Positions 12,814-36,019 of a stretch of 64,000 bases of DNA are shown in pieces. The stretch lies in IMG/VR virus record IMGVR_UViG_3300021364_001752, positions 1-64,000 of that record; one strand, 5' to 3'. The notes under the pieces are model-generated. The model ran no database searches. It saw nothing but the letters and a program-made list of their open reading frames with translations, and had not been told where the DNA came from. The first letter of the stretch is position 1. Every line of letters starts with the position of its first letter. The translations under genes were made by a program, and so were the position numbers. Origin of the DNA: a virus.

Positions 12814-14565
12814 ATGGCAGTCGTTCAGATTTCGAGGATACAACTTAGAAGAGGTAGAGTAGGTGATAGCAGTCCTCCTATTCTTGCTTCTGGCGAAATG
12901 GGTTGGGCAATTGATACCCAGGAGTTGTTTATTGGTAATGGTGCTGTATCAGAAGGCGCACCCGAAGTTGGTAATACTAAAATCCTTACCGAACGAGATA
13001 ATCTATTTGACTTAATAGGCGAATACTCACTAGGTAAAAGCGGCGATACTTTTTCAGTTACCACAGGCATTTCCCCAGCACAACCTATACAACGTCCTTT
13101 ACAATCAAAGTTAGACGACTTTGTTACAGTAAGAGATTTTGGTGCAGATGGTGATGGAGACGACGGCGGCGGCATACAAAGAGCTATCTATGAATTGTTT
13201 CTAAATCAAAGAGCAGGTTTTGAAAATGTAGAACTACGCATACCTGCAGGAACCTATTTGTTATCTGCTCCTCTTTTTGTTCCTCCGGGAGCAAAGATCG
13301 TAGGCGATGGCAAAGGCGTTACAACTCTACAATTAGAAAATGGAATCAATACTCCTATTTTCCAAATGGTAAATTCCACATGGGATCCTAACACACAGCT
13401 ACAAGATACTACCACCGTAGATAACCAGTCAAAAAATGTTATAATCAAAGATATGTCTTTAGATAACACTACAAACTTTGGCGGTTGTATTTTGTTATCC
13501 AGCACTATAAACAGTGTGTTTGAAAATTTACATCTAACAACAGCACATGATTTTGCAATTGACGGATTATATACAGATGGTGTAACTGAATTGTCTATTA
13601 CCGATCAGGGCGGTATTAAATTTGATTACAATGCAGGCAACGCATACCCAAGTGAAAATAATAAGTTTATCAATATAGAATTTGAAAACATGGTTTATGG
13701 TGTTGATGCTCCAAAGAATGCTAACTATAATTTGTTTGAAGGATGTTCATTTAACAATGTAGGTTATGGGATAATGTTTGGTGAAGTAGACGGAGTATCT
13801 ACTAGAGTAATACCTACTGCGGATTATGCATTTGCACCAAAATACAACACAGTTACTAATAGTTATTTCAACGATGTAAGAAGAGAAGCATGGCGTATTT
13901 CCAAAGGACAATACAATAGAAGCAGCAGCAACACATTTTTACGTGTAGGAAATAATGGCGGTAGCAGCGCAGGAAATGCATGGCCAGTGCTTACTTTTGA
14001 TGATTTACATAACAAAAGTGATAATGACTATTTCCAAAGAACATTTGATCTAGCTCTTAATTATGATGTGTTTAATACTTCAGACGAAGATACCATTATT
14101 GATAACTTTGCTGACTATAATTATTATCCTGAGATATCAGGCAGTTTTGATTATGTTAATAGTTTTCCAATTGAAAAGGGCATCGGCAACAATGACTCTC
14201 CATTGCCCTCTGAAAGTAGTTTAGAAACATCATTTATGTATTTGCCAGCACCAGCATTCCAAGGTATTATACAGCTAGACTATACTTATAATGTTCAATT
14301 AGCATCAACACAATTAATACGCAACGGAAAAATTGAAATAATATATGACCAACGAGAAGGCAGTATTACACTAAGCGACGATTATGTTTTTGTAGGTGAC
14401 GAGTCAAGAGATGACTTGCTTACCTTTACTGCTAGTTATGCAAATGGCCGCAATGATGTTATCAGTATTAAGGTAGTAAACGAAACTTTGCTGGATGGCG
14501 AATCATATACAGATTTGTTTACTACAACCATTAGACAAAAATCAACTTATCTGCAGGCTCCGTAA
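12814..14565 (+). CDS. Tailspike / receptor-binding protein with pectate-lyase-3 fold
   Basis: A 583-aa protein. The N-terminus (VVQISRIQLRRGRVGDSSPP...GEMGWAIDTQELFIGNG) is the short phage-fibre attachment domain seen in many tail proteins. From about residue 103 the motif VRDFGADGDGDDGGGIQRAIYEL begins a right-handed beta-helix of the Pectate_lyase_3 type, with repeated N-x-F/I turns through about residue 420. Such spikes bind or cleave host surface polysaccharides at adsorption. The C-terminal 130 residues form a beta-rich cap. It has its own late promoter. Confidence 0.85.
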   Translation: MAVVQISRIQLRRGRVGDSSPPILASGEMGWAIDTQELFIGNGAVSEGAPEVGNTKILTERDNLFDLIGEYSLGKSGDTFSVTTGISPAQPIQRPLQSKLDDFVTVRDFGADGDGDDGGGIQRAIYELFLNQRAGFENVELRIPAGTYLLSAPLFVPPGAKIVGDGKGVTTLQLENGINTPIFQMVNSTWDPNTQLQDTTTVDNQSKNVIIKDMSLDNTTNFGGCILLSSTINSVFENLHLTTAHDFAIDGLYTDGVTELSITDQGGIKFDYNAGNAYPSENNKFINIEFENMVYGVDAPKNANYNLFEGCSFNNVGYGIMFGEVDGVSTRVIPTADYAFAPKYNTVTNSYFNDVRREAWRISKGQYNRSSSNTFLRVGNNGGSSAGNAWPVLTFDDLHNKSDNDYFQRTFDLALNYDVFNTSDEDTIIDNFADYNYYPEISGSFDYVNSFPIEKGIGNNDSPLPSESSLETSFMYLPAPAFQGIIQLDYTYNVQLASTQLIRNGKIEIIYDQREGSITLSDDYVFVGDESRDDLLTFTASYANGRNDVISIKVVNETLLDGESYTDLFTTTIRQKSTYLQAP

Positions 14566-24973: not shown

Positions 24974-24986
24974 TAAATACAGTATG
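24974..24986 (+). promoter_or_regulatory. Late promoter abutting the start codon (leaderless arrangement)
   Basis: TAAATA (24974-24979), CAGT, ATG (24984). Same four-base spacing as at 4248, 19629, 39802 and 40588; no ribosome-binding sequence upstream. Confidence 0.7.
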
Positions 24987-25205
24987 TTGAGAAACGACCT
25001 TAAAGAATACTACAAAGTTTTCTACATGGTGAAAGGTCACCTCGACGCATCACCTCAGACAGTTATAGATAGTTACAACGGATACTTTCGTCGACTATGG
25101 ATCGATGGAAGTAACGGCGCTCCTCTGTATGACTATGAAGAACAGTTCGAACAAGCATGGGAAGACATACAAAATGGTTTCAAAGAAAATACAAGAACTC
25201 AGTAA
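24984..25205 (+). CDS. Hypothetical late protein, 73 aa, leaderless
   Basis: A small soluble protein (MLRNDLKEYYKVFYMVKGHLDASPQT...), not recognised. Its ATG coincides with the predicted late transcription start. It overlaps the next gene by 32 bases. Confidence 0.65.
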   Translation: MLRNDLKEYYKVFYMVKGHLDASPQTVIDSYNGYFRRLWIDGSNGAPLYDYEEQFEQAWEDIQNGFKENTRTQ

Positions 25206-25392: not shown

Positions 25393-25418
25393 TGCATATC
25401 TGATATGCACCAAAAAGG

Positions 25419-25449
25419 TTGACCTCATTTACATAACATGTTATAAATA
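25419..25449 (+). promoter_or_regulatory. Dual promoter for the tmRNA locus
   Basis: TTGACC (25419-25424), 17-base spacer and TATAAA (25442-25447) form a sigma-70 promoter. The same -10 reads TATAAATA (25442-25449), the full T4 late consensus, so the tmRNA could be made early and late. A palindrome GCATATC-T-GATATGC lies just upstream (25394-25408). Confidence 0.7.
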
Positions 25450-25454
25450 GCTTT

Positions 25455-25516
25455 GTTAGCGTTGAAGCAACGTGGACACATACTGGACCCGGGTGCGATT
25501 CCCGGCAGCTCCACCA
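25455..25516 (+). ncRNA. ssrA: tmRNA acceptor piece (two-piece, permuted tmRNA)
   Basis: The 3' (tRNA-like) half of a circularly permuted tmRNA, placed upstream of the coding half as in alphaproteobacteria. It contains the T arm CCGGG-TGCGATT-CCCGG and ends CAGCTCCACCA at 25516. CAGCTCC pairs with the GGGGCTG that starts the coding piece at 25671, giving a 7-bp acceptor stem with a G-U wobble at pair 3, the alanine identity element. The CCA is encoded. The 5' end is estimated from the promoter. Confidence 0.88.
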
Positions 25517-25529
25517 TAAGGACACTATA

Positions 25530-25658
25530 ATGGCATTGATTTGGACAGGAATACAATACACAAGTTTAGCCGCACTACTGGGAATGTGTGTGACGAAATG
25601 GGTTATTGATTTCCGTGCTTGGAGAGCAGGCAGACAAAAGCCAAAATGCTGCGGATAG
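25530..25658 (+). CDS. 42-aa membrane peptide inside the tmRNA intervening segment
   Basis: ATG 25530 (AAGGA site seven bases upstream) to TAG 25658 lies wholly between the tmRNA acceptor and coding pieces. It encodes one hydrophobic segment (IQYTSLAALLGMCVTKWVI) followed by a basic tail ending KPKCCG. In permuted tmRNA precursors this segment is normally a short processed-out loop. An ORF with a proper ribosome site there is unusual. It may be chance, but length, ribosome site and membrane character argue for a real gene. Confidence 0.5.
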   Translation: MALIWTGIQYTSLAALLGMCVTKWVIDFRAWRAGRQKPKCCG

Positions 25659-25670
25659 TGTTTTTATGAT

Positions 25671-25865
25671 GGGGCTGATCAGGATCGACAGGTGTGAAAG
25701 TGAAGTGGAGTTAACCGGATGACTGCGTAATAAGTCAATCAAACTAGATGCAAACGATAATTTTGCACCATCTGAGTTCGCTCTAGCAGCGTAACCACAG
25801 GGGGTATGGGCTCCACCTAGCAACAGAACGGGCCTCCAAGATGAAACATAGGTTATAGCACATCT
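25671..25865 (+). ncRNA. ssrA: tmRNA coding piece (tag ANDNFAPSEFALAA)
   Basis: It starts GGGGCTGATC at 25671, which pairs with the acceptor piece upstream. The resume codon is GCA 25750 and the tag reads ANDNFAPSEFALAA, ending at TAA 25792. The AND start and ALAA end are typical for alphaproteobacterial tags recognised by Clp proteases. tmRNA rescues stalled ribosomes and marks the broken protein for degradation. The 3' end (about 25865) is estimated. The phage also encodes ClpS and ClpP. Confidence 0.9.
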
Positions 25866-25880
25866 GAAAGGAAACCCAAA

Positions 25881-27008
25881 ATGTTTAAAACAATCGCCGC
25901 ATCGATGATGCGGTTTTCAGCGTTAGCAGCGTTGGCATTGACTATTCTCACTCCATCACAAGCAGCAGCAGAAACCAAAGTAGGTTTTGTTTACGTAGGT
26001 CCAGTTGGCGACCTTGGTTGGACATACCGCCATGACATTGGACGTCAAGCTGTAGAACAAGCATACGGTGATGAAGTTTCTACTACCTACCTAGAAAACG
26101 TGCCAGAAGGTCCTGAAGCAGTTGAAGCAATTACTCAACTTGCAGAAGCTGGACACGATATTATCTTTACGACCTCTTTTGGATTCATGGATGCAACCAA
26201 CGAAGTTGCTTCTAGATATCCAGACATTGCATTTGAACATGCAACTGGTTATATTCGCGAAACTGAAAACATGGCTACCTTTGGAGCACGTTTTTATGAA
26301 GGGCGTGTTGTAGAAGGCATGCTTGCAGCGGAAATGACCAAAACCAACAAGATTGGTTACATCGCATCATTCCCTATTCCAGAAGTGGTGCGCGGTATCA
26401 ACGCATTTATGTTGGAAGCACAAAAGCACAATCCAGATGTTGAAGTTGACATTGTTTGGGTTTACACCTGGTTCAACCCAGCAGTTGAAGCATCAGCAGC
26501 ACAGGCATTGATTGATGAAGGTGCTGATATCATTGTGCAGCATACAGACTCGCCAGCGCCATTAAGTATTGCAGAAAAAGCTGGTGTATACGGATTCGGA
26601 CAAGCGTCAAACATGAGCCGCTTTGGTCCTAGTGCGCATCTTGTGAGTATTGTAGATGATTGGGATAGTTACTATGTTGACCGTGTAGGTGAAGTTATCA
26701 ACGGCACCTGGGAAGGCGGAGACACCTGGTGGGGTCTTACCAAAGACGGTCAAGGTGGCGAAAAGGGTATGGTAGCCCTTGAGAGCTACAATGTCGAAGT
26801 GCTTGGACAGGATCTAGTCGATCGTGCCATTGCACTTGAAGAGTCACTTGCTAATGGTGAGCGTCACGCATTTCCATGTGAAGGATTGTTTATGCAAGAC
26901 GGTTCGGTTCCAGAGGACTGTGCAAATGGCGAAGAGCATCTTACAGATGGAACTTTGCTTGGTATGAATTGGTATGTAAAAGGAATTGACGCATCCCTTC
27001 CAAACTAA
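25881..27008 (+). CDS. BMP-family periplasmic substrate-binding protein (nucleoside/purine-type)
   Basis: A 375-aa secreted protein with a signal peptide (about residues 1-30, ending PSQAAAE) and the BMP/Bmp-PnrA domain (VGFVYVGPVGDLGWTYRHDIG, FTTSFGFMDATNEVA, GFGQASNMSRFGPSAHLVSIVDDW). In alphaproteobacteria this family feeds ABC importers of purine nucleosides and related solutes. No permease or ATPase is encoded nearby, so it would have to work with host ABC components, raising or redirecting nucleoside uptake. It sits immediately after the tmRNA with a GAAAGGA site. Its GC-richer coding and close bacterial character suggest transfer from the host. GMP reductase at 34883 could use imported guanine compounds. 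Confidence 0.9.
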   Translation: MFKTIAASMMRFSALAALALTILTPSQAAAETKVGFVYVGPVGDLGWTYRHDIGRQAVEQAYGDEVSTTYLENVPEGPEAVEAITQLAEAGHDIIFTTSFGFMDATNEVASRYPDIAFEHATGYIRETENMATFGARFYEGRVVEGMLAAEMTKTNKIGYIASFPIPEVVRGINAFMLEAQKHNPDVEVDIVWVYTWFNPAVEASAAQALIDEGADIIVQHTDSPAPLSIAEKAGVYGFGQASNMSRFGPSAHLVSIVDDWDSYYVDRVGEVINGTWEGGDTWWGLTKDGQGGEKGMVALESYNVEVLGQDLVDRAIALEESLANGERHAFPCEGLFMQDGSVPEDCANGEEHLTDGTLLGMNWYVKGIDASLPN

Positions 27009-34882: not shown

Positions 34883-36019
34883 ATGCGTCTCGAAGAAGAC
34901 CTTAAACTAGACTACAAGGACGTCCTAATTCGTCCCAAGCGTAGCACTCTCAAAAGTCGTTCTGAAGTTAGTCTCGAACGTAAAACAAACTTTCGTAACT
35001 ATGAACCAGACTTTGATATTGGAGACTACCATTACCGTGGTATTCCAATTATGGCAAGTAATATGGATGGTGTTGGCACATTTGAAATGGCTGACAAACT
35101 TGCCGAAGGCGATATATTCACCTGTCTAGTAAAGACCTATAGCGTAGAGGAACTAGTTGAATATTTCAATGGTCCTATTGAACGCACTGAATGTGTTGCA
35201 ATGAGTATTGGCACAGGTGATAGTGATTATAATAAACTTATCCAAGTTAAGAAAGAATGTGATAACAAATTAAAATATGTTTGTATGGACATTGCAAATG
35301 GATACAGTGAACATTTTGCTGACCATGTAAGAAAGGTCCGCGAAGATTTTCCTGATCTTGTGATTATTGCTGGTAATGTTGTCACTAGAGAAATGACGGA
35401 GGAATTGATTCTTGCTGGAGCCGACATTGTTAAAGTGGGCATTGGCCCTGGTAGTGTTTGCACTACTCGTATTCAAACTGGTGTGGGTTATCCACAACTT
35501 TCGGCTGTTATTGAGTGTGCTGATGCTGCTCATGGTCTCGGCGGTCACATTATTGCTGATGGCGGGTGTTCGACGCCTGGAGATGTCGCAAAAGCCTTTG
35601 CCGCAGGAGCCGACTTCGTCATGCTTGGAGGAATGCTTGCAGGACACGATGAAGGCGGAGGAGAATCCATTTTCAAATATGAAGGAACTGGTGAGTTCTA
35701 TTTTATGAAAGAGGACGAAATTTACAAGCCGGTTATCAACAGAAAAGAATATCGTAAGTTTTACGGTATGAGTAGCGAAACAGCTAATGAAAAACATTTT
35801 GGCGGACTTAAAGACTATCGTTCGTCGGAAGGTCGCACAGTGCTTGTGCCATACAGAGGACCTGTAGCTAAAACAGTGCAGGAAATCATGGGTGGTGTGC
35901 GTAGCACCTGCACCTATACGGGTGCAAAGAAAATCAAGCAGTTGCCCAAGTGTGCAACTTTTATACGTTGTTCACAAACACATAATTCAGTGTATGAAGG
36001 AAGCACAATTGGTAAATAA
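34883..36019 (+). CDS. guaC: GMP reductase
   Basis: A 378-aa TIM-barrel enzyme that converts GMP to IMP with NADPH, releasing ammonia. It aligns with E. coli GuaC from residue 1 ([53 protein letters not shown]). The catalytic Cys is C193 in GPGSVCTTR. There are no CBS domains, which separates it from IMP dehydrogenase. The C-terminal part ([29 protein letters not shown]) is intact. It would turn host or imported guanine nucleotides into IMP and then adenine nucleotides, useful for an AT-rich phage. Confidence 0.94.

Follow-up and report, generated by a model that had tools for sequence, protein, structure and literature searches.

The locus analysed here lies in a 64,000-nucleotide stretch (hereafter the window) of an 80,455-base viral record from IMG/VR, and contains a complete permuted (two-piece), alanine-type tmRNA gene at positions 25455-25865 of the plus strand. 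Between its two pieces lies an intervening sequence, which contains a predicted small protein gene of its own. The features of the locus and its immediate surroundings are as follows.

24984-25205 (+), upstream small gene (73 aa), a homologue of which sits inside the tmRNA spacer of another phage (L092)
25419-25449 (+), promoter, with -35 TTGACC (25419-25424), a 17-nt spacer, and TATAAATA (25442-25449), a T4-type late box that also serves as a -10
25455-25516 (+), acceptor piece of the tmRNA (T-arm, acceptor 3' strand CAGCTCC, encoded CCA at 25514-25516)
25517-25670 (+), intervening sequence (spacer, 154 nt), removed when the two pieces mature, whose ends pair in a closing stem (25516-25529 with about 25656-25667)
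25518-25522 (+), Shine-Dalgarno (SD) sequence AAGGA of the nested gene, 7 nt before its ATG and lying inside the closing stem
25530-25658 (+), nested protein gene, ATG to TAG, 42 aa, MALIWTGIQYTSLAALLGMCVTKWVIDFRAWRAGRQKPKCCG, with a hydrophobic N-terminal half and a basic tail, its stop 12 nt before the RNase P site
25671-25865 (+), coding (mRNA-like) piece of the tmRNA, starting with the acceptor 5' strand GGGGCTG, 3' end approximate
25750-25794 (+), tag reading frame ANDNFAPSEFALAA and stop
25881-27008 (+), downstream gene encoding a Bmp/PnrA-like substrate-binding protein with a signal peptide (Pfam PF02608, E 4e-52), probably on the same transcript, as no plus-strand terminator-like site was found between it and the tmRNA

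ARAGORN found exactly one gene of its kind in the window, a permuted tmRNA at 25423-25885 (+) with the tag ANDNFAPSEFALAA, which ends in a hydrophobic ..ALAA degradation signal. A search with Infernal and the Rfam models, which had been proposed beforehand as a test, agreed with this assignment, with RF04321 (tmRNA_permuted) scoring 108.4 bits (gathering threshold 47, E 3e-20) at 25455-25794 and RF01849 (alpha_tmRNA) scoring 97.9 bits (gathering threshold 50, E 2e-25) at 25415-25837, both over the full models. The acceptor piece ending in the encoded CCA lies upstream of the tag-bearing piece, and GGGGCTG (25671-25677) pairs with CAGCTCC (25506-25512), including the G3.U70 pair that marks alanine tRNAs. 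The original prediction, which had described a two-piece tmRNA of this kind carried by a phage, is therefore confirmed as an observation. It had not noticed the ORF inside the intervening sequence.

To place the phage, we compared other proteins of the window with known phages. A cyclase-domain protein is 49% identical to one of Methylophilales phage Melnitz and 34% identical to one of Pelagibacter phage HTVC008M, both T4-like marine phages, and ribonucleotide reductase and tail-fibre genes also match phage families. A protein encoded at 12814-14565 has a major-tropism-determinant N-terminal domain and a pectate-lyase-like fold and is a candidate tail-fibre or receptor-binding protein. At 34883-36019 there is an IMP dehydrogenase/GMP reductase-type gene (PF00478, E 6e-71), which together with the Bmp gene suggests purine-related auxiliary genes. 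Of 50 related IMG/VR records, 22 have a permuted tmRNA over the model's cut-off. In 22 of 56 distinct loci (for example those designated L037, L046, and L114; L numbers denote compared loci throughout), the first gene after the tmRNA encodes a short secreted protein of one family, with a signal peptide and repeats resembling an outer-membrane barrel, whereas in the window and L055 it encodes a Bmp/PnrA-like nucleoside-binding protein, and in L096, by eye, an AzgA-like purine permease.

The interpretation given with the original prediction is only partly supported. It had claimed that permuted tmRNAs mark alphaproteobacteria (and some cyanobacteria and betaproteobacteria), and that the RNA indicates the lineage of the host and a horizontal acquisition. 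The two-piece form, the alpha type by covariance model, and the phage context hold, but the use of the tag as a marker of host lineage is not supported. A degenerate pattern for the exact tag gave 0 matches in 84,980 GTDB bacterial and archaeal species genomes, whereas the tag occurs in several other viral contigs, so that it is a phage-lineage tag. In addition, Melnitz carries an alpha-type two-piece tmRNA while infecting OM43, which is not an alphaproteobacterium (PMC9004378), so the permuted form does not fix the host. Horizontal acquisition from an alphaproteobacterial lineage is plausible but old. Presence in phages is not new in itself, as 53 two-piece tmRNAs had been counted in phage genomes by 2021 (PMC9004378).

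The original prediction had also claimed that the promoter can be read both as sigma-70 and as a full late consensus, implying use throughout infection. A strict sigma-70 scan does not list this promoter because its -10 reads TATAAA, but the comparison with related genes supports it. Among 98 distinct viral permuted tmRNA genes, 53 have TATAAATA within 150 nt upstream, at a median of 75 nt before the CCA end (background 0.03 per 150 nt), and 43 have it or a close variant combined with TTGAC at the right spacing (TTGAC-N15-20-TWTAWATA). In contrast, TATAAATA was found upstream of 0 of 33 alphaproteobacterial tmRNA genes. The overlapped late and sigma-70-like promoter is a phage feature of these genes, conserved in relatives, while its use throughout infection is only inferred.

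We next asked whether the ORF in the intervening sequence could be a chance open frame in a non-coding spacer of an ordinary phage two-piece tmRNA. In dinucleotide shuffles of the window spacer, an ORF at least as long occurs in 3%, one with ATG and SD in 0.05% (p=0.0005), and one that also has the observed hydropathy in 0 of 20,000, although these features were chosen after seeing the ORF, and ORF length alone is borderline (p 0.03-0.06). No homologue was found in isolate phages by tblastn, and in 50 related IMG/VR phages only three weak matches were found, inside long unrelated frames. Only one homologue of the window ORF was found, in a relative (L599), which carries the same gene with 6 synonymous and 2 non-synonymous changes (6 of 27 synonymous versus 2 of 99 non-synonymous sites; a single pair).

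To extend this question to other viral tmRNAs, spacers were collected in several ways. Because ARAGORN misses or misplaces some long-spacer genes (L069 was not called, and the boundary of L097/L032 was shifted), an independent scan for acceptor pairing was used, which agreed with ARAGORN in 55 of 60 cases. In genes selected only by tag, by spacer length, or by relation to the phage of the window, and not for ORFs, 26 clusters have spacers of 120 nt or more, of which 18 have a forward ORF longer than chance (p<0.05) and only 1 has one on the reverse strand (Fisher 5e-19 versus 0.83). SD-led ORFs occur in 21 of 44 distinct spacers of 100 nt or more, compared with a mean of 2.3 and a maximum of 8 in shuffles, and 2 in reverse complements. 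Two pattern scans of IMG/VR for CCA followed by SD and ATG, which required an SD and an ATG but not an open frame, yielded 35 distinct spacers of 100 nt or more, and in 33 of these the frame from that ATG stays open to within 15 nt of the RNase P site, compared with 1.1 expected. Infernal confirmed a permuted tmRNA in all 12 of these carriers that were tested. Many viral permuted tmRNAs nevertheless have short or ORF-free spacers, and in the tag-selected sample about 14 of 74 distinct genes carry an SD-led nested ORF, not counting three spurious cases with short spacers. Sinorhizobium phage Phosso (PV764938; L021:1538-2140), a 469-kb phage of S. meliloti, has an unannotated permuted tmRNA (RF04321, 113 bits) with a spacer of about 400 nt but no convincing ORF. 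The spacer of L371 (approximately 1557-1654) lacks an ORF but contains a T-arm-like hairpin (GAAGGTTCGATTCCTTC) flanked by GAGTA/TACTC, resembling a tRNA fragment. The arrangement is not limited to alpha-type RNAs, as a beta-type permuted tmRNA (RF01850) in a viral contig (L562:6627-7091) also carries a nested ORF of 52 aa.

The nested frames are conserved as proteins. The spacer genes of L069 and L097 differ at 33 of 41 synonymous but only 6 of 157 non-synonymous sites. Of ten families with enough changes, nine have a pooled pN/pS of 0.05-0.39, and the tenth, with only 5 changes, 0.98. At least 30 unrelated families came from the two pattern scans, and more from the first sample, ranging from peptides of 20-40 residues, assigned to membranes by hydropathy only, to HNH endonucleases. 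The latter are found in three spacers (L379, L044, and L578) and are of at least two types (L379/L044, and L578/L640, matching phrog_655 at E 7e-15). Other cargo includes a DUF2061-like membrane protein (L105; Pfam E 2e-4, just below its cut-off), many short hydrophobic peptides, and, in L092, a relative of the gene that lies just upstream of the tmRNA in the window (54% identity over 35 aa, E 1e-11 for the single comparison). A chance open frame, although consistent with the borderline length of the window ORF and with the lack of an ORF in most sampled spacers, is therefore already largely refuted and appears very unlikely.

Cellular genes served as a control. Of 289 alphaproteobacterial genomes, 263 have the gene over the cut-off. 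Among 150 listed model spans the median is 218, and only 2 are of 290 nt or more, both without an ORF. Thirty-six alphaproteobacterial spacers examined are 10-89 nt long (median 30.5 nt), with no ORF of 20 aa or more. A scan of genome contigs for the long-spacer pattern returned at least 116 matches, and none of these was a real permuted tmRNA by ARAGORN. In this sample, the nested gene is a phage trait. A short non-coding intervening sequence is typical of the bacterial genes but does not define the class, so that the assignment of the window gene, with its 154-nt spacer and conserved ORF, stands.

Comparison of spacers and flanking pieces indicates that the cargo is exchanged. The spacers of the window and L599 are 94% identical, although their acceptor and coding pieces are only 69% and 79% identical. 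L376 and L023 show 98.5% identity in the spacer against 78-79% in the flanks, and L375 has nearly the same tmRNA as L376 but an empty 29-nt spacer. Over 323 pairs with alignable spacers, 51 have a spacer at least 10 points more alike than both flanks, and 2 show the reverse. These pairs are not independent and were chosen for alignable spacers, so the direction matters more than the count. The simplest account is recombination in the conserved tmRNA pieces that swaps the spacer. An alternative is that the inserts are selfish, homing-type elements, in which HNH genes and their degenerate or hitch-hiking passengers home into the tmRNA gene, as endonuclease genes do in introns. The mosaicism, the HNH genes inside spacers, the empty-like short spacers in close tmRNA relatives, and a second association, in which HNH genes of 217 and 209 aa abut the acceptor piece immediately upstream of the tmRNA in L034 and L050, favour this view. 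However, most cargo, including that of the window, is not an endonuclease and is under purifying selection as small, often hydrophobic proteins, and we consider homing unlikely.

The two ends of the spacer pair and extend the acceptor stem, and in the window this stem is present in both MFE and centroid folds. Over 79 distinct viral genes, 90% of the ten closing-stem pairs form, compared with 70% with partners permuted and 35-58% with a shifted register, and many compensated pair types are present. In the window the SD sequence lies inside this stem, while in many other genes it lies just after it. Stops fall mostly 12 or 1 nt before, or 13 nt after, the RNase P site, because the conserved 3' end of the spacer offers stops in all three frames. 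These positions, at which a ribosome would cover the cleavage site, the SD within the stem, and the several families that read across the site could also indicate that the ORFs act as leader peptides, whose translation would hold the stem open and delay RNase P, tuning tmRNA maturation rather than making a working protein. The conservation of amino acid sequence within families and the presence of an enzyme (HNH) among the cargo would not be needed for a pure leader, and this reading is unlikely, although it could coexist with the main one.

Taken together, our results are best explained, with good confidence, by a working two-piece, alanine-accepting tmRNA gene of a T4-like aquatic phage whose intervening sequence carries a separate protein-coding gene. 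In this view, one precursor is made from the late/sigma-70-like promoter and serves first as mRNA and then as tmRNA. Ribosomes could translate the 42-codon gene from its own SD site, giving a small, probably membrane-inserted protein, while RNase P cutting before GGGGCTG and 3' trimming to CCA would free the two tmRNA pieces and destroy or release the spacer mRNA. As the SD of the window lies in the closing stem, translation would probably be favoured while the transcript is nascent and shut off once the precursor folds. Some nested frames run past the RNase P site, so that for those processing would cut the message. Across related phages, the spacer is a cargo site occupied by unrelated small genes, and the cassette moves between tmRNA genes by recombination. 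The tmRNA, the nested ORF, its conservation as protein, the diversity of the cargo, and the mosaic pattern are established by sequence, whereas transcription from the promoter, translation, processing into two pieces and its order, and the membrane location and function of the small proteins are inferred. A lysis, exclusion, or membrane-protease role would fit a small membrane protein, but nothing here decides between them. SmpB was not found in the record of the window or in 12 relatives, these records being fragments, and the phage tmRNA presumably uses host SmpB and alanyl-tRNA synthetase. A further reading, which remains tentative, is that the spacer is a general, exchangeable cargo site with RNase P acting as the switch from mRNA to tmRNA, and that maturation would turn the frames reading across the RNase P site into nonstop messages that the same tmRNA then tags, a built-in feedback comparable to arfA.

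Phage tmRNAs are usually treated as borrowed rescue RNAs. Our findings suggest that the part that cells discard is reused to hold protein genes, in many phages and with dozens of unrelated contents, exposing a set of small phage proteins that annotation pipelines skip because they lie inside an RNA gene. The locus provides a natural system for studying competition between translation and RNase P on one transcript, and suggests a possible reason why two-piece tmRNAs are common in aquatic phages, namely that the permuted gene has a spacer that can carry cargo. Searches of the open literature for ORFs in tmRNA spacers found no earlier report, although a prior mention, for example in the 2009 review 'Variations on the tmRNA gene', cannot be excluded.

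One of the closest known systems is the two-piece tmRNA of Melnitz (PMC9004378; MZ577097), a permuted alpha-type tmRNA in a T4-like marine phage related to that of the window, with a -35-like box plus TATAAATA upstream and a spacer of similar length (142 nt). We found no mention of an ORF in the spacer in that report, but we detect in Melnitz (L020:2777-3229) an unannotated, SD-led 54-aa frame (MFKWLSKTRLVVITRDYF...), unrelated to the gene of the window, that starts in the spacer and runs 42 nt past the RNase P site, with 12 family members in IMG/VR and a pooled pN/pS of 0.31. Melnitz was reported to have a glutamine riboswitch associated with its ssrA, whereas Rfam found none in the window. 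Alphaproteobacterial permuted tmRNAs (RF01849/RF04321) share the order of pieces, the G3.U70 acceptor, the ANDN-type tag start, and the covariance-model match, but differ in the short, ORF-free spacers of the genes examined. A tmRNA group I intron with a homing endonuclease gene (PMC11915505) also carries a protein gene in a part that is removed from the mature RNA. There, the carrier is a self-splicing intron in the T-loop region, whereas here, where no group I intron family matched in the window and the gene is permuted, it is the spacer, removed by tRNA-processing enzymes without rejoining, and most cargo is not an endonuclease. Finally, a permuted tmRNA with tRNA-Ala in its intervening sequence (GCA-2688965, PMC11915505) likewise has a second gene lodged in the spacer, but that is an RNA gene in a single nominally archaeal MAG, compared with protein genes in many phages here.
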